A stretch of DNA of 64,000 nt from Fimbriimonadaceae bacterium (GTDB lineage Bacteria > Armatimonadota > Fimbriimonadia > Fimbriimonadales > Fimbriimonadaceae): NCBI GenBank assembly GCA_019454125.1, contig CP075365.1, positions 372,001-436,000 on the forward strand, written 5' to 3'. The notes below the pieces were generated by a model. That model had not been told where the DNA came from. It worked only from the letters and a program-made list of their open reading frames with translations, and did no database searches. Positions within the stretch are counted from its first letter, which is position 1. Each line of letters opens with the position of its first letter. Positions 4,154 through 50,558 of the stretch are shown here, one piece after another. Both the position numbers and the translations under genes were made by a program.

Positions 4154-4669
4154 TTAGAACGTGACGTCCCAGTTCAGCTGGTCCAGGCCGACCCGCCACT
4201 TGCCGGCCACGACAGGGCCGCGGTTGTCGACCCAATAGCGGACCTTCATTTGGCCGCCCGCGGCGGTGAACCGCTGGCACTGGTTGATCTGCACCTGGCG
4301 GACCGTGTCCGAAAGCGTGATCGGCCCGCGATAGACCTCCACGTACCGGTTCAGGCTCCAGTCCCACATCTCGACGTATTCGACCAGGCCGAGCGTGGTC
4401 GCGGCCGACTCGATCACGAGCGACATGGCGGCCGGGTTCGAACTGCCGCAAACCACCTCGCCTTCGACGTCGACGGGGTTGTCATACGGAGAGGTCTTGA
4501 TGCCGTTCTCCACGACCAAACGGTCGTTGTCGCTTTCGAAAAGGCTGAAGAGGCCACCGGAGACGATCCGCCCGCGGTGCACGTTCAGCATCTGGGGCGG
4601 GAAGACGAACGCGGAAGCGACCGTCGAAAGGGCGAACAGCGAGACGATGGCTAAGCCAAGTTTCTTCAT
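4154..4669 (-). CDS. Secreted stand-alone copy of the C-terminal module of the Asp-box propeller proteins
   Basis: 171 residues. ATG 4669 is chosen because it follows AGGAAC and starts a clean Sec signal peptide (MKKLGLAIVSLFALSTVASA). The mature protein runs GRIVSGGLFSLFESDNDRLV, then VEMWDWSLNRYVEVYRG and KWRVGLDQLNWDV. The same landmarks (VSGxLxSL, D-x-R, E/Q-L-x-N/D, Y/W-E/D-V/T, W-x-V-x-[VIL]-D) close both propeller proteins at 37929 and 48831. So this is a free-standing version of that module, probably a beta-sandwich. Function unknown. No named family is claimed. Confidence 0.65.
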   Translation of the reverse strand: MKKLGLAIVSLFALSTVASAFVFPPQMLNVHRGRIVSGGLFSLFESDNDRLVVENGIKTSPYDNPVDVEGEVVCGSSNPAAMSLVIESAATTLGLVEYVEMWDWSLNRYVEVYRGPITLSDTVRQVQINQCQRFTAAGGQMKVRYWVDNRGPVVAGKWRVGLDQLNWDVTF

Positions 4670-5059
4670 ACAGGTTCCTGAGCGCGGACTCACTTCCGCA
4701 TTCGTGGACTCAGATGCAGGTTGGCTAGTTTTGGTTACACAGGCCCGGCGCCGACCACGTGCGCGGCCACTGCGCCCAGATGGACGACGTCCAAACCTGC
4801 TACGGCGACCTCGACCGGCATATGGGCTGAGGAGGTCGGCGACAAGGCCTCCCGGCATCGTCTTCGCCGGGGCACTGCCCTTTCCCCTCCCCCTTACCCC
4901 CTCCCCAAGCCTGGGGAGGGGGGATTTGGCGCAACCCCGCTCACACTCCTCCCCCCTCCCCAAGCTTGGGGAGGGGGACAGGCGGAGGGGAGATCCTCCA
5001 TGCCCAACCAAAGGAACCCCCCTCCCCATGCTTGGGGAGGGGGTCAGGGGGAGGGGAGA
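4670..5059. repeat. Non-coding stretch ending in palindromic repeat cluster 1
   Basis: From 4670 to about 4883 I see no convincing gene. From 4884 come three copies of a 26-27 bp palindrome, CCCCCTCCCC-AAGC-(T/C)TGGGGAGGGGG, at 4897-4923, 4951-4977 and 5017-5043. The left flank reads CCCCTCCCCCTTAC and the right flank is close to its reverse complement (TCAGGGGGAGGGG), so the cluster is an inverted composite unit. The first copy is followed by ATTTGGCGCAACCCCGC, which recurs after the copy at 5436. The right flank supplies the stop codon of the DUF559 gene. Confidence 0.8.
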
Positions 5060-5409
5060 CGGGCGAGGCAGTGGCGATAGATGTCTTCGACGACCGAGTC
5101 GACGTCCTGGAAAACGTGCTGGTTGGGATAGCGCAGAGTCAGCCATCCCTGCCCCGCGAACTGGGCGTCCCGCGCCGAGTCGCGAGCTTCGCGACCCTCG
5201 TGCCCTTCGCCGTCGAGCTCGACCACGACCTTGGCCGCGACGCAGCAGAAGTCGGCGACGAAGCCGATGACCGGGTGCTGGCGACGGAACTTCAGGCCCG
5301 CCACGTTCTTGCGCCTCAGCTCTTCCCAAAGCCGCTTCTCCGCCCACGTCGGCTCTTTCCGCATCCGCCGGGCAGCCGTGACGAGCTCTTCCGGCCTCTT
5401 TTTCGCCAT
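5044..5409 (-). CDS. DUF559 domain endonuclease-like protein
   Basis: 121 residues from ATG. The whole protein is one DUF559 domain, a Vsr-like PD-(D/E)XK nuclease fold: ARRMRKEPTWAEKRLWEELR at the start, then FRRQHPVIGFVADFCC with the catalytic Asp, VVVELDGEGHEG with the catalytic Glu, and LRYPNQHVFQDVDSVVEDI at the end. The last residues (LARLPSP) and the stop are encoded by the flanking GC-rich repeat. Repeat clusters begin within 15 bases on both sides, so gene plus repeats look like one insertion. The biological role of DUF559 proteins is not established. Confidence 0.85.
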   Translation of the reverse strand: MAKKRPEELVTAARRMRKEPTWAEKRLWEELRRKNVAGLKFRRQHPVIGFVADFCCVAAKVVVELDGEGHEGREARDSARDAQFAGQGWLTLRYPNQHVFQDVDSVVEDIYRHCLARLPSP

Positions 5410-5421
5410 GGCCCCGCTTTT

Positions 5422-5809
5422 ACCCCTCCCCCTTACCCCCTCCCCAAGCCTGGGGAGGGGGGATTTGGCCCAACCCCGCGCCTAAATCCATGCCTCGCGG
5501 CGAAGTGCAACGCTCCCGTTCTCCCCCCTCCCCAAGCCTGGGGAGGGGGATCTTTCCGCCGCTCCGCACCTTGATCCATGCTTCGCGGCGAAGTGCAACG
5601 CCCCGGTCCTCCCCCCTCCCCAGGCTTGGGGAGGGGGTAAGGGGGAGGGGAGAACGGCCAGCCGCAACCAAAGGGAACCCAAGCGAGCCCCCCTCCCCAG
5701 GTTTGGGGAGGGGGATTACAGAAATCAGTTCTGACCTGACCTAGGTCGGGACGAAGGCCTTACCGCGCTTCCCCTCCCCCTGACCCCCTCCCCAAGCCTG
5801 GGGAGGGGG
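5422..5809. repeat. Palindromic repeat cluster 2
   Basis: Five more copies of the CCCCTCCCC...GGGGAGGGG palindrome, at 5436-5462, 5523-5549, 5611-5637, 5688-5714 and 5784-5809. Two spacers carry the direct repeat ATCCATGC(C/T)TCGCGGCGAAG with its continuation (from about 5487 and 5575). The unit beginning at 5424 opens with CCCCTCCCCCTTAC and closes at 5638-5652 with its inverse, as in cluster 1. The interval 5410-5855 contains no other gene. Confidence 0.85.
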
Positions 5810-10784: not shown

Positions 10785-11399
10785 TTACTTGCGGCGGCGT
10801 CGGGCGGCCAAGGCGGCCAAGCCCGTACCGAGGGCCAGCATCGTGGCCGGTTCCGGCACCGGCGCATAGGTGTCCACCTGGAACACGGTGCCATTGATGA
10901 CGTTCGCCACGCCGTCCCGATAAGACGTCGCGTTCGAGAGCGCCCAGAAGACCGTGCTGTTCGTGCCCGGGCCCAGCTGGTTACCGCCGACGCGTGCGAA
11001 GTCGTAACCGATGTTGTCGACCGAGCGGTCAGCCGTGAGCGCGGTCATGCCGAACATGGGGAAGCCGGCCGAGGTGGCATCGTGCTGGGCGACGGCGCTC
11101 GTGAAGCCGGTCCAACCGGTGGCCGTCATGCGCGCGATGTGGTCCGCACTGGTCGAATTGTTCTGGATGACCCAGGCGAAGATCAGGTTGTTGCCGAAGG
11201 CAGCGTTCGTAGCCACGATCGACGTGAGGGAACCCTGGATGTTGGGGTCGCTGAAGTTGACGGTCTTGCTCGCGAGGATGTTCAGCGAGGGCGTGCTCAC
11301 GATCGGCACGTTGACCTGCTGGTTGATCCCGACGGCAGTCTGGGCCGAGGCCACCACAGACCCCGAAGCCAGAACCATCATGGGAAGGTATCGTTTCAT
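10785..11399 (-). CDS. PEP-CTERM sorting-domain protein
   Basis: 204 residues. ATG 11399 follows AGGAGAGAG at good spacing. The N-terminal signal peptide is MKRYLPMMVLASGSVVASA. The C-terminus VPEPATMLALGTGLAALAAR followed by RRRK is a textbook PEP-CTERM tripartite signal: VPEP, hydrophobic helix, Arg-rich tail. The signal is recognised by an exosortase not present in this window. The body is Asn/Thr-rich and beta-like, with no catalytic motif. Probably a surface or extracellular-matrix protein. A TACAAT -10-like box lies at 11449-11454. Monocistronic. Confidence 0.85.
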   Translation of the reverse strand: MKRYLPMMVLASGSVVASAQTAVGINQQVNVPIVSTPSLNILASKTVNFSDPNIQGSLTSIVATNAAFGNNLIFAWVIQNNSTSADHIARMTATGWTGFTSAVAQHDATSAGFPMFGMTALTADRSVDNIGYDFARVGGNQLGPGTNSTVFWALSNATSYRDGVANVINGTVFQVDTYAPVPEPATMLALGTGLAALAARRRRK

Positions 11400-11586
11400 C
11401 AAATTTCTCTCTCCTACTGCCGAGCCCCTTATCGGAGCCGCGACAGTAATTGTATGCGAGAAAAGCTAGACGAGTGACATACCCGCCCTCTTGTTCAGAC
11501 TCCAGAAGCAAAAAAAGTGCGGGGGCGGGTCTAAATCCCCTCGTAACCATTACGTAGGTAATTTTTGCTCCGGCCCCAAATCGCCA

Positions 11587-12224: not shown

Positions 12225-14807
12225 GTGGCTCGCAAGCGGCTCGTGATCATCGACGGGTACAGCCTGCTCTTCCGCTCCTTCTACGGCACCAGGTTTCTCA
12301 GCACGAGCAAGGGGGTTCCGACCAACGCCCTCTTCGGATTCGTCAACACGCTTGTCGCGATGTTGAACGACTATAAGCCAGATGCGATCGTCGTCGCCTT
12401 GGACGCGCCTGGAAAGACGTTTCGCCATACCGAGTTCTCAGAGTACAAAGGGACGCGCCGCGAGACGCCTTCCGAGCTGCAAAGCCAACTCGCCTTTTCG
12501 CGAGAGATGATCTCCGCGCTCAATATTCCGACTCTCGAACTTGTCGGGTACGAGGCGGACGACATCATCGGGACCCTTTCGCTCAAGGCACGTGAGAGCG
12601 AATACGACACTTTGATCGTGAGCGGCGACCGCGACAGCTTTCAACTTATCGACGAGAGCGTTACCGTCCTCATGCCCCAAACCGGAGGCGGCCATAAGCT
12701 TTATGACGTGGCAGCAGTCGTGGAGCGGTTTCAATTCCAGCCCCTGCAGATGATCGACTATAAGGCGCTCGCAGGGGACGCGAGCGACAACATACCGGGC
12801 GTACCGAAAATCGGGGACAAATCGGCCACGGTCCTGCTGGAACAATTCGGGACTGTCGAAGGGATCATCGAGCGTTTCGACGAAGTACCGCCAAAGTTTC
12901 AAAAGCTCATCGAACCTTATATCGAGCAGATGAAGCTCTCGAAGCGTCTGGCGACGATCGCACGGGACGCACCGGTCCAATACGATTGCGCACCCTATAC
13001 AATAGACGAAGAGCATGTCGCCCAGATTCGCGACATGATGGAGTCCCTGGAATTCAAGGCTTTATCGCGGCGGCTCGAAAACGCCCTAGGGCCTTACCGC
13101 ACAGCCTCGGCCGACCGCGCAGCTGCCGAAGTCGGGATCGAGAATCTAGAGCTTGAGATCAAGCCCCCGGTCACATCCTATGAAGAACTGCGTTCCTGGG
13201 TCAGTGACCAAGCCTTTTCCCTTGTTCCTCATACAGAATCTGTCCAGCCTTCGATGTTTGAGGAGAGCCGCCCGGAATACTTTGTCGGGTTGGGGGGAGT
13301 GGTCCGCAGCGTGCCACTGGAGTTCGTCGAGGCTCTGATGCATGCAACCGCAGCACAAGCTATCGGGCACGACTTAAAGCCGACCTATAAGCGTTTTGCC
13401 TTGGACGGCGCGGTGCCGCGCTTCGACTCCATGCTTGCCGGCTATGTGCTTCAGTCCGGACGGTCTGGATACGACATAAACGACCTGAGCCTCGCTTACC
13501 TCGAAGTTCCCGCAAGAACCCCAGAACTTCAGGCGAGCGCCCTCCACTACTTGGAGAAAGCCCTTGGCGACCGACTGGACAAAGAGGGTCAGACCAAGGT
13601 CTTCAAGGAGATCGAAATGCCGCTGGTTCCGATCCTCGCAAAGATGGAGACTACAGGGATTGCCGTCGACCGCACGTGTTTGGAATCCTTGTCGGGATCG
13701 CTCGACGTCAGCATCGGCCAGTGCCAAACTTTGGTCTACGAGCTTGCAGGGGGAGAGTTTAATATCTCGTCGCCAAAGCAGATCGGCGAAGTCCTCTTTG
13801 AGAAGCTCGCCCTTCCGGGCGGACGCAAGACGAAGACAGGTTGGGCCACTGGTGCGGAGATCCTTGCGGAAATGGAGCACCCGGTCGCGCGAGAAATCGT
13901 CAATTATCGGGAGCTGACAAAACTTAAAGGCACCTACGCCGACGCCCTCCCGAAACTCATTGCCTTCGACGGACGCATCCATACGACGTACAACCAGACT
14001 GTGGCCGCGACCGGTCGTCTTAGCTCGAACGATCCCAACCTCCAGAACATTCCTGTTAGAACCGAACTTGGGCGGCAGATTCGAAAGGCTTTCGTGGCTT
14101 CTCCCGGCTTCATGCTCGCCTCGTTCGACTACTCACAAATCGAGCTGCGCATTCTCGCCCATATGGCGCAAGACCCGAACCTCGTCGAGGCGTTCGAGAA
14201 GAGGGAGGACGTCCACACCGTGACGGCGTCGCTTATGTTCCATCAATCGCTGGAAGACACCACAAAGGAACAACGGAGACTAGCGAAACTCCTTAACTAC
14301 GCCGTGCTCTATGGCGTCACAGACTTTGGACTTTCTAACCAGTTAGGCGAGGGCTTTTCACGCTCGGACGCGGCTGCGCTCATCAACCAGTACAACGAAC
14401 GTTTCCCGGCGGTAAAGGCGTTCATGGGCGCGGTGGTGGACGAGGCGAGGGCCAAAGGCTTCACCACCACGCTGCTGGGCCGGAGGAGGTACTTTCCAGA
14501 GATCCATGCCGCCAACCGCGGCATTCGCCAATACGCCGAGCGCCAAGCGATGAACGCGCCGCTCCAGGGCACGGCGGCCGATATGATCAAGCTCGCGATG
14601 ATCCGCGTGGCCCGGTTGCTGGAAGGCAAGCGGACGAGGCTCCTGCTCCAGGTCCACGACGAGCTGCTCTTCGAGGTCGCCCTGGGCGAGGAAGACCTCT
14701 TCGGCCCCATCCGCAAGGCGATGGAGGACGCGCTCCCGCTCAACATCCCCGTCGAGGTCGACGGGAAAATCGGGCCGAACTGGCTCGAAATGTCGCCGCT
14801 GCCTTAG
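12225..14807 (+). CDS. polA: DNA polymerase I
   Basis: 860 residues from GTG. Residues 1-290 are an intact 5'-nuclease (FEN) domain with VGYEADDIIGTL, SGDRDSFQL and DASDNIPGVPKIGDKSA. Residues about 305-470 keep the 3'-5' exonuclease fold (GHDLKPTYK, DSMLAGYVLQ) but lack the DxE metal motif, so proofreading is probably absent. The polymerase domain has motif A SFDYSQIELR, motif B RRLAKLLNYAVLYG and motif C QVHDELLFEV. In motif B the residue equivalent to E. coli F762 is Tyr692. The enzyme fills gaps and processes Okazaki primers. The first 2.2 kb is less GC-rich (near 55 %) than the last 0.4 kb (about 65 %). Confidence 0.97.
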   Translation: MARKRLVIIDGYSLLFRSFYGTRFLSTSKGVPTNALFGFVNTLVAMLNDYKPDAIVVALDAPGKTFRHTEFSEYKGTRRETPSELQSQLAFSREMISALNIPTLELVGYEADDIIGTLSLKARESEYDTLIVSGDRDSFQLIDESVTVLMPQTGGGHKLYDVAAVVERFQFQPLQMIDYKALAGDASDNIPGVPKIGDKSATVLLEQFGTVEGIIERFDEVPPKFQKLIEPYIEQMKLSKRLATIARDAPVQYDCAPYTIDEEHVAQIRDMMESLEFKALSRRLENALGPYRTASADRAAAEVGIENLELEIKPPVTSYEELRSWVSDQAFSLVPHTESVQPSMFEESRPEYFVGLGGVVRSVPLEFVEALMHATAAQAIGHDLKPTYKRFALDGAVPRFDSMLAGYVLQSGRSGYDINDLSLAYLEVPARTPELQASALHYLEKALGDRLDKEGQTKVFKEIEMPLVPILAKMETTGIAVDRTCLESLSGSLDVSIGQCQTLVYELAGGEFNISSPKQIGEVLFEKLALPGGRKTKTGWATGAEILAEMEHPVAREIVNYRELTKLKGTYADALPKLIAFDGRIHTTYNQTVAATGRLSSNDPNLQNIPVRTELGRQIRKAFVASPGFMLASFDYSQIELRILAHMAQDPNLVEAFEKREDVHTVTASLMFHQSLEDTTKEQRRLAKLLNYAVLYGVTDFGLSNQLGEGFSRSDAAALINQYNERFPAVKAFMGAVVDEARAKGFTTTLLGRRRYFPEIHAANRGIRQYAERQAMNAPLQGTAADMIKLAMIRVARLLEGKRTRLLLQVHDELLFEVALGEEDLFGPIRKAMEDALPLNIPVEVDGKIGPNWLEMSPLP

Positions 14808-15052
14808 TTGTGGTTTACGGGCGGGGCGACGGGACGCGCCTGCACCCGGATCGCTTGCGGGCTTGGTCGACGCCGCGCGACGTACCAGATGGCCATGCCG
14901 AACATGAGGAGCATCACCACTCCGTCGTCCAACCAGCCGATGAGCGGGATCAAGTCGGGCACGATGTCGATGGGCGAGACCCCATAGACCAACCCGACGA
15001 GGATCGGGAAGAGGGCTCTCCAGGCAGACGGGGCGCCATTGCTTCGCGTCAT
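14804..15052 (-). CDS. DUF1232 (YkvA-like) small membrane protein
   Basis: 82 residues from ATG. Shows the DUF1232 hallmark SPIDIVPDLIPLIGWLDD between two hydrophobic segments, then a basic tail. Family members are inner-membrane proteins of unknown function. The stop codon overlaps that of polA (TTAG), so the two genes converge with a four-base overlap. Confidence 0.85.
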   Translation of the reverse strand: MTRSNGAPSAWRALFPILVGLVYGVSPIDIVPDLIPLIGWLDDGVVMLLMFGMAIWYVARRRPSPQAIRVQARPVAPPVNHN

Positions 15053-15111
15053 GGGCAGTTCGACGGTATTGGGGCGCCTTCCGTTCGCGGCCCAGCCCCT
15101 TCGTCCTGGGA

Positions 15112-16311
15112 CTAGCGCGGCAGCGTCAACCGCACGAACCGGTGCTTCCCGACCCGCAGGACCTTGCCGTCCAGATCCTCCACCGAGAGCTTGGCGAACG
15201 GATCGGCGACCTTTTCGCCGTCAAGCCCCACCGCACCCTGCTTGATCAACTCGCGGGCCTTGCCATTGCTCGCGGCGAGACCGAGTCCCACCAAAAGGTT
15301 GGCGAGGGGCGCAAGCCCGTCGACAAGAAGCTCCACCGGGAGGGAGACTTCCTCCGCCTCCACCGGTTGTTGGCGCTGGCTAAAGGTGTCGCGAAAATAG
15401 CGGTCCGCCTCCTCCGCGGATTCAACCGAATGGTAGAGGGCTACGATCTCGCGGGCCAGCCGTTTTTTGGCATCGTACGGATTGGCCGCGACCGCCTGTC
15501 CCGCCTCGTCCATCGGAACATCGGTGCAAAGCTCGAACCAGTTCAAAATGAGCTCATCGGGGATCGACATCGTCTTCCCGTACATGTCGTTCGGGGTATC
15601 GACGATGCTGACGTAGTTGCCCAGCGACTGGGACATTTTCTCCTTCCCGTCGGTGCCGACGAGCAGCGGGCTGAGAATCACCACCTGCGCCTCCTGGCCG
15701 AACTGTTCCATCAAGTTCCGTCCAACCAAATTGTTGAACTTTTGGTCGTTGCCCCCCAATTCAATGTCCGATTCCAGGGCCACGGAGTCATACCCCTGGC
15801 AAAGAGGATAGAGAAGCTCGTGCATGGAGATCGGGCGGTGCTCGTTCCACCTCTTGGTGAAATCATCGCGCTCCATGATCCGTGCCACGGTGTAGCGGGA
15901 GCAGAGCCGGACGACGTCCTCGAACGACATCGCCCCGAGCCAGTCGCGGTTGAACCGGATTTCCGTCTTTTCAGGGTCCAAGATCTTATAAAACTGCTGG
16001 CTCACGGCGTCGACGTTCGCTTGGACCTCCTCGCGGGTGAGCTGCTTGCGGGTCTTGCCCTTGCCGCTCGGGTCGCCGATCATGGCGGTGAAGTCGCCGA
16101 TCACGAGGCAGGCCGTATGACCGAGCCGCTGGAAGTCTCGAAGCTTGCGCAGCACGACGGCCCAGCCCAACGTCACATGGGCGGCAGTCGGGTCGACCCC
16201 GAGCTTTACCCGCAACGGGCGGCCGAGCTTCAGCTTGCGGACCAGGTCGTCCTCGCTGATGATCTCGGTCGTTCCCCGGCGCAAAAGCGCAACCTGCTCT
16301 TCGACCGTCAT
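15112..16311 (-). CDS. tyrS: Tyrosyl-tRNA synthetase
   Basis: 399 residues from ATG. Class I catalytic domain of the long TyrRS subgroup: LGVDPTAA, GDFTAMIGDPSGKGKTRKQL, SDIELGGNDQKFN, and KMSQS (residues 225-229) for the KMSKS loop. The C-terminal S4 RNA-binding domain spans about 340-399 (GLAASNGKARELIKQGAV). The HIGH-equivalent position reads TLGW (47-50) instead of HxGH. It charges tRNA-Tyr with tyrosine. Monocistronic on the minus strand. Confidence 0.93.
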   Translation of the reverse strand: MTVEEQVALLRRGTTEIISEDDLVRKLKLGRPLRVKLGVDPTAAHVTLGWAVVLRKLRDFQRLGHTACLVIGDFTAMIGDPSGKGKTRKQLTREEVQANVDAVSQQFYKILDPEKTEIRFNRDWLGAMSFEDVVRLCSRYTVARIMERDDFTKRWNEHRPISMHELLYPLCQGYDSVALESDIELGGNDQKFNNLVGRNLMEQFGQEAQVVILSPLLVGTDGKEKMSQSLGNYVSIVDTPNDMYGKTMSIPDELILNWFELCTDVPMDEAGQAVAANPYDAKKRLAREIVALYHSVESAEEADRYFRDTFSQRQQPVEAEEVSLPVELLVDGLAPLANLLVGLGLAASNGKARELIKQGAVGLDGEKVADPFAKLSVEDLDGKVLRVGKHRFVRLTLPR

Positions 16312-16380
16312 TCCGCGCCGATTGTACCGATGGCCCCTTCGTCAGGGCGCGCGAGTCGCTTCGCCCTCGCGGTCGAGGCC

Positions 16381-17799
16381 CTAGCCGAACTGGAACTCCG
16401 GCGAGCCGAAGATGAGCCTGGCCACGACTTGGGCCACGTCTCCCGCGTTGCCCGCCGTCACCGCCCCTCCAGACTTCTCGCGGCAGGCCGCGACAAGCTG
16501 GTCCATCTTTGCCTGCGGCAAAGACGCGTCGAAGAGCGACACGAGACGTTTCGCGACCCCTTCTGGGGTCGGATCCCCGCGAAAGAGCGGCCAGGCCGGA
16601 TACCGCACCGACGCTTGCCCCTTGATCTGTGCGACGCCAAAGAGCCGGTCCGCCCACTTCATCCGCTCGACCATGGTGGCCGAGGTGATCCAGGCGTCGC
16701 CCGTCTTCCAGCCCGAGACGTCCGGAGGGTACATCAGCTCCATCCCCATCGAGGTCGTGCTCTGGATCAGGAGCAAGGCGGGGCCGGCGGCACGGGTCCC
16801 TTGCACCTTCTGGTCGCTGGCAAGCCGGTCGGTCACGGCTTGGCCCAATCCCAATTGCCGCAAGGTGGACACGCAAAACTGGACCGGGTTCTTGATCTCG
16901 GCGCGGAGCGCCTTCTCGCTGAGGAACTCGGGGGAGAGGGCAATAGCGCGGACGAGCGAGCTCACGACGAGCCCGTCCCGCACCCAATTCGCGGCCAACC
17001 GCTCGATAAGTTTCGGGTCAGGGTCCGGATAGGCGAACCACGACCAGAACTTCGCCGTGAGCCGCAGGGCGGTTTGGGGGTGCCTGGCCAGGAGCCCGAG
17101 CACGGCGTCGCCGTCGAAGTCGCCGCTCTGGCCGAGGATCGTCTTTGAGCCGGCGTCGTGCTGGCCGCGTTCGAACGAGAAGCTCACGTTCGGCCCCGGC
17201 TTTTCGACCTCCCTGAACCTCGCGCCGCGGCGAATGCCGTAAGTCCAGCCCGTAAAGGCCCGCGCCGCCTCTTGGACGTCCGCCTCCGAATAGTGGCCGA
17301 TCCCCAGGGTGAAGAGCTCCATCACCTCGCGGGCGAAGTTCTCGTTGGGGCTGCCTTTCTTGTTCTCCCGGTTGTCGAGCCAGTAGAGCATCGCAGGGTC
17401 CTTGCTCACTGCGGTGAGGAGGTCCAAGAAGGGGCCGGCACAGTGCTTCCGCAGGGTCTCGACATGGTTGACCATGGCAGGGCCGGAGTCGACCTTTTGG
17501 GCGCTTGTGGCGAAGTGGTCGTGCCAGAAAAGGGTGAGGGCATATTCCAGCGGCCGCTGGCTGGAGAGGACCCGCGCGTACCACCAAACTTGGGCCAGCT
17601 TCACGGGAAGCTGGCCCTTGGAGTTGGCGAACCGGTCGAGGGGCACCGCGGGCTCGGAAAGAGCCTCGTAGCCGAGCAACCGGTCGACGGCGGCTTCGTA
17701 GCCACCCTGGACATAAGAGTCCAGCTCTGCCTCGCTCGCGCCGAGCCCAAAACGGCGGAGCAAGTGGCCGACTTTATCTCGGTCAGTCGCGAATCCCAC
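16381..17799 (-). CDS. DUF1800 family protein
   Basis: 472 residues. Starts HLLRRFGLGASEAELDSYV; then LTLFWHDHFATSAQKVD, NENFAREVMELFTLGIGHY and EAARAFTGWTYG, which together define DUF1800. These proteins are often exported and usually encoded beside a DUF1501 partner. Here there is no such partner and no obvious signal peptide at this start. Function unknown. The C-terminal part carries YPPDVSGWKTGDAWI, also typical. Confidence 0.9.
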   Translation of the reverse strand: MGFATDRDKVGHLLRRFGLGASEAELDSYVQGGYEAAVDRLLGYEALSEPAVPLDRFANSKGQLPVKLAQVWWYARVLSSQRPLEYALTLFWHDHFATSAQKVDSGPAMVNHVETLRKHCAGPFLDLLTAVSKDPAMLYWLDNRENKKGSPNENFAREVMELFTLGIGHYSEADVQEAARAFTGWTYGIRRGARFREVEKPGPNVSFSFERGQHDAGSKTILGQSGDFDGDAVLGLLARHPQTALRLTAKFWSWFAYPDPDPKLIERLAANWVRDGLVVSSLVRAIALSPEFLSEKALRAEIKNPVQFCVSTLRQLGLGQAVTDRLASDQKVQGTRAAGPALLLIQSTTSMGMELMYPPDVSGWKTGDAWITSATMVERMKWADRLFGVAQIKGQASVRYPAWPLFRGDPTPEGVAKRLVSLFDASLPQAKMDQLVAACREKSGGAVTAGNAGDVAQVVARLIFGSPEFQFG

Positions 17800-37928: not shown

Positions 37929-39710
37929 CTATCTCCGCCCGTTAACGTGGAACCGGTCGATCCTCGCCGTCCAGTTCGGCCCTGCGAGGATGCCGCTTTG
38001 GCGCCAACCCACGCGAGCCCTCACAGTCCGGGTCGCCGCATCGAAGAAGCGGGCGGGACTCGCCCCCGCGGGAACCGTGATGCGCGTCTCGGTCCCCGAT
38101 GCCGAGCGGGTGTCGATCGTCTCCCACTGGTTCGTCTGCACGTTGAGCAGCTCGATCTTCTGGGTGATGGAGGAAGGCGGCACGGCCGTGACCGAGCTCG
38201 TCAAGTCCACCTCGAGCGAAGCGACCTGGGTCACACCGGTGACGAAGGTCGCCGTGCACCCCGCGTTCGGGCCGGTCGGGCCAAAGGCCGGAGCGTTCCG
38301 GACCTCGAAGCGGTTCCCATCGGTCTGGCAGAGCGAGTCCACGTTCCCCGCGATCTGGATCCCCCCGTTCGTGCCGGCCACCGTCGGCGCCGTGAACGGG
38401 TTGATCACAACATTGACGTAGCTGTCCGGATCGTTGTTCGGCCAGCTGGCGACGTAGTTGGGATAGACGCGCTGGCCGCCCCAACCCATGCCGAGATAGT
38501 CGCCGTAGAACGCCATGGCCCGGTTAAGGCCGTCGTTCATCATGTCGAACTTGAAGTTCGTCAGGATCTCGCGCGACCACGTCGCCCCTTGGTCGTCGCT
38601 GTAGGAGTAGTAGGCCTCCGTGATGCAGCTTGCCGTGTTGTTGTCGTTTTGGGGCGTCGACTCGGTGCTGTAGTAGAGCAAGTGGATGCGGCCCGTGCGG
38701 TCCACCTCGACCCAGGGGAAGAAGTGGTCTCGGCTGATGCTCGTGTTGCGGAAGAGCGGCGCGGGAGAGGTGAAGGTCGCCCCGCCGTCCGTCGACTTCT
38801 GGAAGAAGAGGTCGCAGTTCCGGTTCGAGCCGACCAGGTTGCCCGAGTCGGGCGAGACCGCATAGACCGCGCCCGTCACGGGGTCCACCGCGATCGACGG
38901 AATGGCGGGCACGCGGAAGTTGCCCGGGATAATCGGGCAGTCCTCGGTCCCCCAAGTCCCGACGCGGGTCAGCAGGGTCTGGGCGGCCAGGTAGCTGACT
39001 CCCCCGTTGGTGCTGCGCCGGAGCTGGAACGTTTGGTTCGAGAAGTTCCAGAAGGAGACGTAGACGTTGCCCTCCGGCCCGACACGGGGGTTGAAGCCCA
39101 GGCCCGAGCCGAGCGAGACCGGCGCCAGCCAGGTCAAGCCCAGGTCGTTCGACCGTGCCACGCCAAGGTTGTAAGCCACGTAGAGCCGCGTGCTGTTCGG
39201 ATCGCCGGGGACGATCCCGGCGGCGCCCCAAACCTTGTCTGTGCCGCCGTTCGCCTGCACCATGACCGGTGCGTCGAATGCGTTCACTCCAGGGGTCTTG
39301 CGCGCGAGGTAGACGCCGCCGTTACTCGCAAAGCTGATCGCTCCGGCCCATGTGTTGCCGGTGCGGTAGTCGTAGATCGTGAACGGGTCCCCTTCGACGC
39401 CGGACCGGTTCGCAGTTGGCGGGCGCAGGGTGAAGTCGGCCCAAGTGGCGCCGCCGTCCGAGCTGACGCCGACGCCACAACGGATCACTTCGGACCCGGT
39501 GCTCTCGCTCCAGTCGTTCCAGGACGTGACGATCTCGTTGCCTAGGGCGCCCACCGAGGCCGCGCTCATCTCGTTCGCGGCGAAGGTGCCCCTGCCCGTG
39601 TCCGTCCGGACAGGCGGGCCGATTAAGACGGACTGGGCCGAGACAAGGCCGGCGCAAGTCGCGAGTGCGGCCGTGAGAAGTCGGCGGCGGGTGGATAATC
39701 TTCGTTCCAT
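37929..39710 (-). CDS. Secreted Asp-box beta-propeller protein (cassette A)
   Basis: 593 residues. Signal peptide about 1-25 (RRRLLTAALATCAGLVSAQS). Five Asp-boxes are visible: SSDGGATW, SNDLGLTW, STNGGVSY, STDGGATF and SDDQGATW. They imply a sialidase-fold six-bladed propeller, but the sialidase catalytic set cannot be assigned, so no enzyme activity is claimed. After DYLGMGWGG a C-terminal module (about 440-593) contains QKIELLNVQTNQWETIDTRS and NWTARIDRFHV. It is clearly paralogous to the protein at 48831. It lies 21 bases after a TPR lipoprotein gene on the same strand, presumably one operon. Confidence 0.75.
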   Translation of the reverse strand: MERRLSTRRRLLTAALATCAGLVSAQSVLIGPPVRTDTGRGTFAANEMSAASVGALGNEIVTSWNDWSESTGSEVIRCGVGVSSDGGATWADFTLRPPTANRSGVEGDPFTIYDYRTGNTWAGAISFASNGGVYLARKTPGVNAFDAPVMVQANGGTDKVWGAAGIVPGDPNSTRLYVAYNLGVARSNDLGLTWLAPVSLGSGLGFNPRVGPEGNVYVSFWNFSNQTFQLRRSTNGGVSYLAAQTLLTRVGTWGTEDCPIIPGNFRVPAIPSIAVDPVTGAVYAVSPDSGNLVGSNRNCDLFFQKSTDGGATFTSPAPLFRNTSISRDHFFPWVEVDRTGRIHLLYYSTESTPQNDNNTASCITEAYYSYSDDQGATWSREILTNFKFDMMNDGLNRAMAFYGDYLGMGWGGQRVYPNYVASWPNNDPDSYVNVVINPFTAPTVAGTNGGIQIAGNVDSLCQTDGNRFEVRNAPAFGPTGPNAGCTATFVTGVTQVASLEVDLTSSVTAVPPSSITQKIELLNVQTNQWETIDTRSASGTETRITVPAGASPARFFDAATRTVRARVGWRQSGILAGPNWTARIDRFHVNGRR

Positions 39711-39731
39711 AGTGCGTTCAGTCCCCTTGCC

Positions 39732-48138: not shown

Positions 48139-48819
48139 ATGAACAGACTTCTTGCCTTGTTGTTGCCGCTGGGGCTGGCGATCGCCGGCTGCGGCACCGG
48201 CGAAGTGGCGCGCATCCAGCCGCACGGCCGGGGCGGCGCCACCCCGGTCGAATCGCCCAAAGAGAAACTTGAGGAACAGCGGATGGCCGACGCCACCCGC
48301 GGGCTCGTGATCACGAACCTGGTCCGAACCCAGACAAACCAACCGGCGGACCGCGCCAAAGCCATCAACCTCACCGCCAAGGCGGACGAGGTCTACCAGA
48401 TCGAGAACTCGTGGTTCCTCAGCGTCGGCGCCTACCGGGACGCGGTGCTTGCGGACCCCTCCTATGCCCCCGCCTATGTCGGGATGGGCAACGCGTTCCT
48501 CCTGGAAGGAAAGACCGACCACGCCAAGGCCGCCTACCGCACGGCGCTGGCCAAGGACGCCAAGAACTTGGAGGCCGGCTACCAGCTTGGCCTCGTGGCC
48601 CAGATGGACGGCGACTATCGCGGGGCCGTGGCCCAATGGCGCGGGGTCGTGTCCCTCACCCCGACCTATAAAGACACCTTCGCCCGCATGGCCTTGGCCA
48701 GCTACTTCGCGGAGGACTATGACGCCGCCTGGACTTACCTGAACAAGGCCAAGGGCCTGCGCCAAGACATACCCGCCCAGTTCGAGGGGCTGTTGCGCGA
48801 GGCTTCGAAGAAGGCGTGA
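48139..48819 (+). CDS. TPR lipoprotein (cassette B)
   Basis: 226 residues. ATG 48139 after GGAGGGA. Signal peptide MNRLLALLLPLGLAIAGC with lipobox IAGC. Then TPVESPKEKLEEQRMADATR, aligned with the equivalent segment of cassette A. Four TPR-like units follow (FLSVGAYRDAVLADPSYAPA, GKTDHAKAAYRTALAKDAKN, DGDYRGAVAQWRGVVSLTPT, DAAWTYLNKAKGLRQDIPAQ), ending FEGLLREA; cassette A ends HFKDLVRSEA. Stop is 11 bases before the propeller gene, so the two are one operon. Confidence 0.75.
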   Translation: MNRLLALLLPLGLAIAGCGTGEVARIQPHGRGGATPVESPKEKLEEQRMADATRGLVITNLVRTQTNQPADRAKAINLTAKADEVYQIENSWFLSVGAYRDAVLADPSYAPAYVGMGNAFLLEGKTDHAKAAYRTALAKDAKNLEAGYQLGLVAQMDGDYRGAVAQWRGVVSLTPTYKDTFARMALASYFAEDYDAAWTYLNKAKGLRQDIPAQFEGLLREASKKA

Positions 48820-48830
48820 GAGACAAGACC

Positions 48831-50558
48831 ATGAACACGAGGCTTAACCTGACCCTTGCCCTGGCGTCCCTCGCGGCCGCTTCGGTCTTCGCCCAGGACC
48901 CGGTGGTCCCTGCGCCGGTGCGCATCACGCTGAACAACAGCGCGACCAATGACAACGAGACGACGGGCGCCGCCACCGCAGACGGCCTGGAAGTCGTCGG
49001 CGGCTTTAACGAGTACGTCCCTGGCGGGATACGCTCCGCGTTTCCCACGAGCAACGACGGAGGCCAGACGTGGACCCACGTCACCGTCCGGCCGCCCAGC
49101 GCGTTCCAGGCGACGGTCGAAGGCGACCCGATGACCGCCTACGACGCCCGGACCAACACGATCTGGGTCGGCGCGATGGCCTTCGCCTCGAACGGCGGCA
49201 TCTACGTCGCCCGAAAGAACCCGGGGGCCAACACCTATCAGCCGGCCGTCATGGCCCGCATCAACGGCTCGGTCGACAAGGGCTGGATGGCGGCAGGGCC
49301 GCGTCCCGGGAACCCCAACACGACCCGGCTCTATTGCACATATAACCAAGGCGTCATTTGGTCGGACGACCTGGGCGCGACGTGGACCGCGCCCATCTCG
49401 CTCGGCTCCGGTCTCGGCTTCCTGCCCCGAATCGGCCCGAACGGCGAGCTTTACGCGACCTATTGGAACATCGGCACGGGCGTCGACTTCCGCCGCTCGC
49501 TCGACGGGGGCCAGACTTGGAGCGGAGCCATCCGCGCGGCCACCCGAATGGACGTTTGGAGCACGGAATCGCCCAACAGCCGCTTCGCGGGCGCCCACCG
49601 CGTGCCACCGCTCCATTCGATGGCGGTGAACCCGGTCGACGGCACCATCGCCATCGTCTACCCGGACACCACGAACATCGTGAACGGGAACCGGAACGTC
49701 GACCTCTACCTGGTGCGGTCGAGCAACCAGGGCACGACGTGGTCGACCCCGCAACGGCTGCCCTTCCGCGACCTGGCGACGATCGGCGACATGTACTTCC
49801 CGTGGGTGGAGTACACCAAAGACGGCCGGCTGCACCTCCTCGCGTTCGACTCGCAGTACGTCCAGCAGAACGACAACCCGAGCAACGGGTTTCTCGACCA
49901 AGACTACGCGTACAGTGACGACAACGGCGCGACCTGGGGCAAGTTCCGGCTGACCGCCCAGTCCTTCCGGAGCGACGCCGCGAGCCCCGCCTTCTTGGGC
50001 GACTACCTCGGGATGGGCATCAGCGACCGCTACGTCTATCCCATCCACCTCTCGACGATCACGGGCGAACCGGAAGGCTATACCAGCGTGATCTTCAACC
50101 CGAACGTGTTCCCGAACAATGTGCAGCTCTCGCGCGGCCAATTGGTCTCGGGCAACCTCGCCTCGATCCTCCGCAAGGACGGGAACCGGTACCTCGCCAA
50201 CCCCGGCATCACTGTCAACAACAGTGAGTCGCCCGTGCAAATCGACGTCACCGGCAACTCGGTCATCGCGCCGGGCAGCAAACTGGAGCTCTTCCTCTGG
50301 ACGAGCGGCAGCGCCACCGGCGTGCAGCAGAAGGTGCAGCTGCTCAACATCCAGACCCAGCAGTACGACACGGTGGACACGCGCCAGGTGACCCTGGCCG
50401 ATTCCAACACAGTCGTTACGGTGAACGACCCCGTCCCCTACATCACGCCGGGCTCAGGGACGGTGCGCATGCGCCTCGCTTACCGCGCGAGCCAGCCGGT
50501 GCCCAACAACAACTGGGAAGTCCGGGTGGACCAGGCCATCTTCCGCGTCTTCCCGTAG
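48831..50558 (+). CDS. Secreted Asp-box beta-propeller protein (cassette B)
   Basis: 575 residues from ATG 48831 (an upstream GTG at 48816 overlaps the lipoprotein stop). Signal peptide MNTRLNLTLALASLAAASVF. Five Asp-boxes: SNDGGQTW, SDDLGATW, SLDGGQTW, SSNQGTTW, SDDNGATW. Blocks shared with cassette A include VEGDPMTAYDART, MAFASNGGIYVARKNPGANT and SLGSGLGFLPRIGPNGELYA. C-terminal module (about 425-575): GQLVSGNLASILRKDGNRYL, QQKVQLLNIQTQQYDTVDTR, NWEVRVDQAIFRV. Function unknown; catalytic residues of sialidases cannot be placed. Confidence 0.75.
   Translation: MNTRLNLTLALASLAAASVFAQDPVVPAPVRITLNNSATNDNETTGAATADGLEVVGGFNEYVPGGIRSAFPTSNDGGQTWTHVTVRPPSAFQATVEGDPMTAYDARTNTIWVGAMAFASNGGIYVARKNPGANTYQPAVMARINGSVDKGWMAAGPRPGNPNTTRLYCTYNQGVIWSDDLGATWTAPISLGSGLGFLPRIGPNGELYATYWNIGTGVDFRRSLDGGQTWSGAIRAATRMDVWSTESPNSRFAGAHRVPPLHSMAVNPVDGTIAIVYPDTTNIVNGNRNVDLYLVRSSNQGTTWSTPQRLPFRDLATIGDMYFPWVEYTKDGRLHLLAFDSQYVQQNDNPSNGFLDQDYAYSDDNGATWGKFRLTAQSFRSDAASPAFLGDYLGMGISDRYVYPIHLSTITGEPEGYTSVIFNPNVFPNNVQLSRGQLVSGNLASILRKDGNRYLANPGITVNNSESPVQIDVTGNSVIAPGSKLELFLWTSGSATGVQQKVQLLNIQTQQYDTVDTRQVTLADSNTVVTVNDPVPYITPGSGTVRMRLAYRASQPVPNNNWEVRVDQAIFRVFP

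Follow-up and report, generated by a model that had tools for sequence, protein, structure and literature searches.

A C-terminal module on dozens of exported proteins of a Fimbriimonadaceae bacterium, its free-standing form, and a tentative role in surface docking

The short gene P0001 of the window (the whole stretch of 64,000 nucleotides that was analyzed) codes for a predicted signal peptide followed by one module of about 150 residues and no other part, and the same kind of module closes both exported beta-propeller proteins found further along (Table 1). The first-pass annotation had already described these three contexts, but the set is larger than noted, with 39 strong copies in the genome. 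With a likelihood that we place just short of even, we propose that the module is a C-terminal surface-docking domain, for which we infer both the receptor and the location. More generally, adhesion or sorting, the roles suggested at first, is a plausible and the leading class of explanation.

Table 1 Positions in the window of the free-standing gene, the two propeller genes, and their modules.
Feature	Position	Strand	Comment
P0001, free-standing module gene	4154..4669	-	171 aa; signal peptide and one module
Predicted Sec signal peptide of P0001, MKKLGLAIVSLFALSTVASA	4610..4669	-	Direct reading and hydrophobicity scan
P0001 module, modeled segment of 156 residues	4157..4624	-	Predicted jelly-roll sandwich, pLDDT 95.8
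P0003, 580-aa exported BNR-repeat beta-propeller protein, module at end	48816..50558	+	
P0003 C-terminal module copy	~50088..50555	+	
P0002, second exported beta-propeller protein, module at end	37929..39731	-	
P0002 C-terminal module copy	~37932..38390	-	Most divergent in the window; pLDDT 91.7

The P0001 coding sequence is exact on the minus strand, with the ATG at 4669, the stop codon at 4154 to 4156, and 171 codons plus the stop. A 397-aa open reading frame in the same frame was rejected as over-long, since the ortholog in genome G105 (L113) has 173 codons between stops and an equivalent start methionine. The landmarks that had been listed from the letters alone are roughly right, reading VSGGLFSL, VSGNLASI, and IAGNVDSL and, for the closing motif, WRVGLD, WEVRVD, and WTARID. 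Likeness among the three window segments is far above chance, which is confirmed by a leave-out profile made of 34 copies from elsewhere in the genome, with all three window copies excluded: the segments scored 111.1, 121.4, and 94.5 bits against this profile, while the maximum among 9,000 shuffled sequences (3,000 per segment) was 10.9. Pairwise BLASTP found two of the three possible pairs (7e-14 and 3e-17) and missed that of the P0001 and P0002 modules. Between P0002 and P0003, the modules are only about 31% identical, compared to 44% for the propellers.

The host genome consists of one contig of 2.65 Mb, in which a single-sequence search with P0001 returned 33 places at an E value of up to 10 (the weakest at 0.3). 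The profile search gave 44 places at E values of up to 0.1, and the 39 that fall below 1e-12 are those we call strong copies, so that the earlier statement of a module used on several exported proteins was an understatement. The P0002 module, absent from the sequences of the first profile, was recovered at an E value of 1.1e-26. A weak copy with one in-frame TAG (G000:C1:276790-277245) adjoins an intact module gene and is possibly decaying.

All the copies of this genome are C-terminal. Over every locus that was fetched, the module was counted in 139 distinct proteins whose 3' end is intact; it is C-terminal in 138 of them, ends no more than 12 residues from the stop in 135, and is tandem in none. 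The alignment stops 23 to 30 residues early in three proteins, whose tail resembles the remainder of the module, and in one (L085) a dockerin-like stretch comes after it. A simple scan detected a hydrophobic, signal-peptide-like start in all 33 proteins of the single-sequence search, among which the other anchors amounted to one lipobox-like match and one borderline membrane stretch. The passenger domains that could be recognized are subtilase (four proteins), GDSL lipase, Vps10/BNR, PQQ and NHL propellers, and PKD, while many passengers match no family; no glycosidase domain was recognized in any passenger scanned.

The suggestion that the module is mobile was borne out by comparing modules and passengers within this genome. 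Modules that share at least 45% identity form 78 pairs, and in 71 of these the two passengers have no BLAST similarity at 1e-3; in the extreme pair on unrelated passengers, the modules are 72% identical in protein and 78% in DNA. Such near-identical modules on unrelated passengers imply mobility and, judging from the sequence identities, modules recombine between passengers or are homogenized. The converse is seen in L036:4548 and L036:6102, with passengers 46% identical and modules that resemble those of unrelated proteins more than each other. By contrast, BNR propellers from 13 genomes retain a module in 15 of 15 proteins, which is uninformative on exchange, and their modules mostly cluster together in a quick tree. 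We also observed an inverted duplication in L053 (1333 to 4474 on the plus strand and 13272 to 16494 on the minus strand, about 10 kb apart) with two overlapping genes, both ending in the module; between the arms, passengers are 76 to 82% identical and modules 82 to 90%.

A different type of exchange appears in homologs of the Vps10-type passenger L050. Among 30 of them fetched from the family, a distant set (about 31 to 35% identity) and not strict orthologs, 12 end in the module and 8 in dockerin-like pairs of calcium loops, and the rest have other ends or possible divergent relatives of the module. Of the dockerin-like homologs, six were scanned, and Dockerin_1 exceeded the Pfam cut-off in four. 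Dockerin type I (PF00404) thus resembles the module in filling the same C-terminal slot on Vps10-type homologs, and one protein has both. The fold of dockerin type I, made of paired calcium loops and helices, is unrelated to that of the module, and PF00404 had no match in the module copies and none in the genome at an E value of up to 0.001. A dockerin in the module's slot speaks for docking or addressing, as far as these homologs may indicate, without proving it. We considered whether dockerin and module are inversely distributed over the family and dropped the idea: the counts per genome gave a Spearman coefficient of -0.23 (p 0.04) with relatedness ignored and module counts taken as "at least" values, but across genera the coefficient was -0.05 (Fisher p 0.64), which is not significantly inverse. 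Dockerin type I matches number 18 to 66 per genome in some Fimbriimonadaceae (G109, G110, G112 to G116, and G139 to G145) and none to a few in most other genomes of the family.

No family in Pfam or NCBIfam covers the module (37 copies, E values of up to 1), none of the curated CBM families in these libraries matched any of the 37 copies, and we found no description of the domain in the literature. The only repeated match was a borderline one to GH114_assoc (PF14741), detected in 8 of the 37 copies (best, 8.8e-5 for the segment) and in 4 of 35 relatives, and covering the C-terminal half of the module (about positions 44 to 122 of the 126 in the profile). When the genome was searched with this family, eight places were returned, seven strong module copies and one weak copy. 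Against a cut-off of 22 bits, one genome copy scored 23.0, but 21.9 as a whole protein, and the other copies, including the three of the window, were below it. GH114_assoc is named as an N-terminal, GH114-associated domain, whereas the module is C-terminal and found without GH114, a domain that had no match in the proteins scanned. A paper on GH114 (PMC12054363) has none of the terms looked for that would denote an associated domain. Distant kinship between the module and GH114_assoc is probable on these partial matches, although membership in this family fails on the N-terminal position. About 40 genes of a 2.65-Mb genome (very roughly 1.5%, an estimate) appear to have in common one domain that the libraries do not describe.

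AlphaFold2 models of the P0001 and P0002 modules, which share one homolog set and are not fully independent, arrange their strands and helices in the same order, so that the expectation of a common beta-sandwich held for the two copies modeled. The predicted structure is a jelly-roll beta-sandwich like that of CBM-type modules. Its best match among solved structures is a baseplate protein of phage phi812 (Z 14.8); CBM4, CBM29, and modules like them come next (VIA Z 10 to 12; Foldseek E value of 2e-5 to CBM4). The fold is like that of CBM4-2 from the Rhodothermus xylanase (Z 11.6 to 11.8, 2.7 to 2.8 Å over about 132 residues) and that of CBM29 (Z 10 to 11). Sequence identity to both is 5 to 10%, and the module is instead strictly C-terminal and single, on passengers without recognized glycosidase domains. 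Z values of this size speak of a common architecture and not of a common function. A search of the PDB by sequence gave no credible relative. The most conserved positions (P0001 numbering) are G33, G38, D47, D163, P25, G94, R144, L43, and W158. Two cysteine columns are both present in 51 copies and both absent in 84, never single, which is strong evidence from the alignment for a disulfide in that subfamily and fits an exported domain; the three window copies are without the pair.

The free-standing form has been maintained in relatives. Orthologs of P0001 that also have the signal peptide are coded by genomes G126, G105, G106, and G107 (64, 56, 43, and 42% identity), and the five proteins form one fully supported clade among passenger-bearing modules in the quick tree. 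A sixth free-standing protein, P0004 (L096:4072-4581), is placed elsewhere on a long branch. From this tree, the free-standing form seems to have arisen at least once and probably twice, and to have been kept since then. Synteny around the gene is not conserved among relatives. In G106 (L144, 7296 to 11699), the free-standing ortholog divergently adjoins two module-ended genes. More widely, at least one module copy was found in 98 of the 291 genomes of a phylum sample. High copy numbers occur in the family of the host and in another family of its order, and elsewhere there are one to a few; these counts per genome are lower bounds, with at least 12 in the fullest genomes. The contigs of relatives were searched with a closer subfamily as the query, as the 37-row alignment was too divergent. 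Plasmid records gave no module match.

Under the surface-docking reading, passengers would be exported by Sec and then probably cross the outer membrane by type II secretion. The module would remain attached and bind one common receptor on the envelope of its own cell, for which a polysaccharide of the surface or matrix, held in lectin fashion, is the likeliest candidate, so that the passenger would be retained at the cell surface. Lacking a cargo, P0001 would bind this receptor as well, in the role of a small surface lectin by which such sites are covered, cross-linked, or spaced. Polysaccharide binding is proposed because of the CBM-like fold, and the lack of a recognized glycosidase domain on passengers points to a ligand of the cell itself and away from a substrate. 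The jelly-roll sandwich is widespread and can mediate contacts between proteins as well, which counts against this reading. In favor of docking itself we count exported passengers almost without another anchor, the single C-terminal placement, the swapping of modules across passengers, the exchange of module and dockerin in one slot, the CBM4/CBM29-like fold together with the weak GH114_assoc link, and a free-standing clade that keeps both signal peptide and module.

The main rival, which we hold to be rather unlikely, is that the module is a type IX-like signal for export or sorting at the outer membrane, served by a dedicated machine and perhaps cleaved after transit. In that case, the free-standing protein would be part of the machine or regulate it, like PorA, a CTD protein that acts in this way in type IX secretion (PMC7712824). 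The type IX CTD is likewise a single domain at the C-terminus of dozens of cargo proteins that are unrelated and have Sec signals, and the genomic hallmarks of such systems are all seen here: strict C-terminal single copies, many unrelated exported cargo proteins, signal peptides, and a set of about 40. However, the module is larger than the type IX CTD, none of the 37 copies matched the type IX CTD models of NCBIfam or Pfam at an E value of up to 1, and the best SprA candidate reached 31.5 bits, with the cut-off at 200, its match spanning 95 of the 2319 positions; on the SprA score and the absent model matches, membership in type IX secretion was rejected. The predicted sandwich is also a different one, as the structures matched at Z 11 to 12 are CBM-type jelly rolls and not Ig-like, the published type IX CTD having a seven-strand Ig-like fold (PMC4804311). 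A search for a C25-type PorU sortase gave no match in the genome, and control genomes were equally silent. In addition, the genome paper of the related genus Fimbriimonas reported a type II system (PMC4072686). We also consider it unlikely that the module belongs to an unrecognized C-terminal sorting system of Armatimonadota, where a non-type-IX jelly roll would be handled by a putative outer-membrane machine or receptor, with the free-standing copy as its dedicated component.

The fold and the weak GH114_assoc link could also be read as those of a classical carbohydrate-binding module that aims secreted enzymes or binding proteins at an external polysaccharide. This is decidedly unlikely, as protease, lipase, and propeller domains were recognized among the passengers and a glycosidase domain was not. 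Carbohydrate-binding modules are usually at either end of a protein and in tandem, but the module is never tandem and essentially never internal, a placement that also counts against surface docking in that it fits an export signal equally well. Lastly, the many conserved turn glycines and core residues, and a disulfide that would be gained or lost as a pair, are what might be expected from a stability or oligomerization domain without a common receptor, spread via duplication and recombination. We regard this as very improbable, since it leaves unexplained the C-terminal-only placement and the replacement by dockerin in homologs.

If the module is indeed a surface address, it would explain how exported proteases, lipases, and propeller proteins are held in a phylum that has been little studied, would make the surface proteome predictable from sequence, and could provide a natural tag for surface display. 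PEP-CTERM is another C-terminal class, with about 39 proteins in this genome; it is a 24-residue motif, unlike the module, and its listed positions do not overlap the module copies. Module, dockerin, and PEP-CTERM, three C-terminal classes within one bacterial family, make a testable case. One PEP-CTERM protein lies in the window (10785 to 11402), and its 39 genome matches make a class about as large as the module set. Last, at 4882 to 5809 of the window, a GC-rich palindrome of 26 nt (CCCCCTCCCCAAGCCTGGGGAGGGGG and variants) occurs eight times, flanking a DUF559 gene (5044 to 5409, minus strand), an arrangement that resembles a REP-type cluster around a nuclease-like gene.
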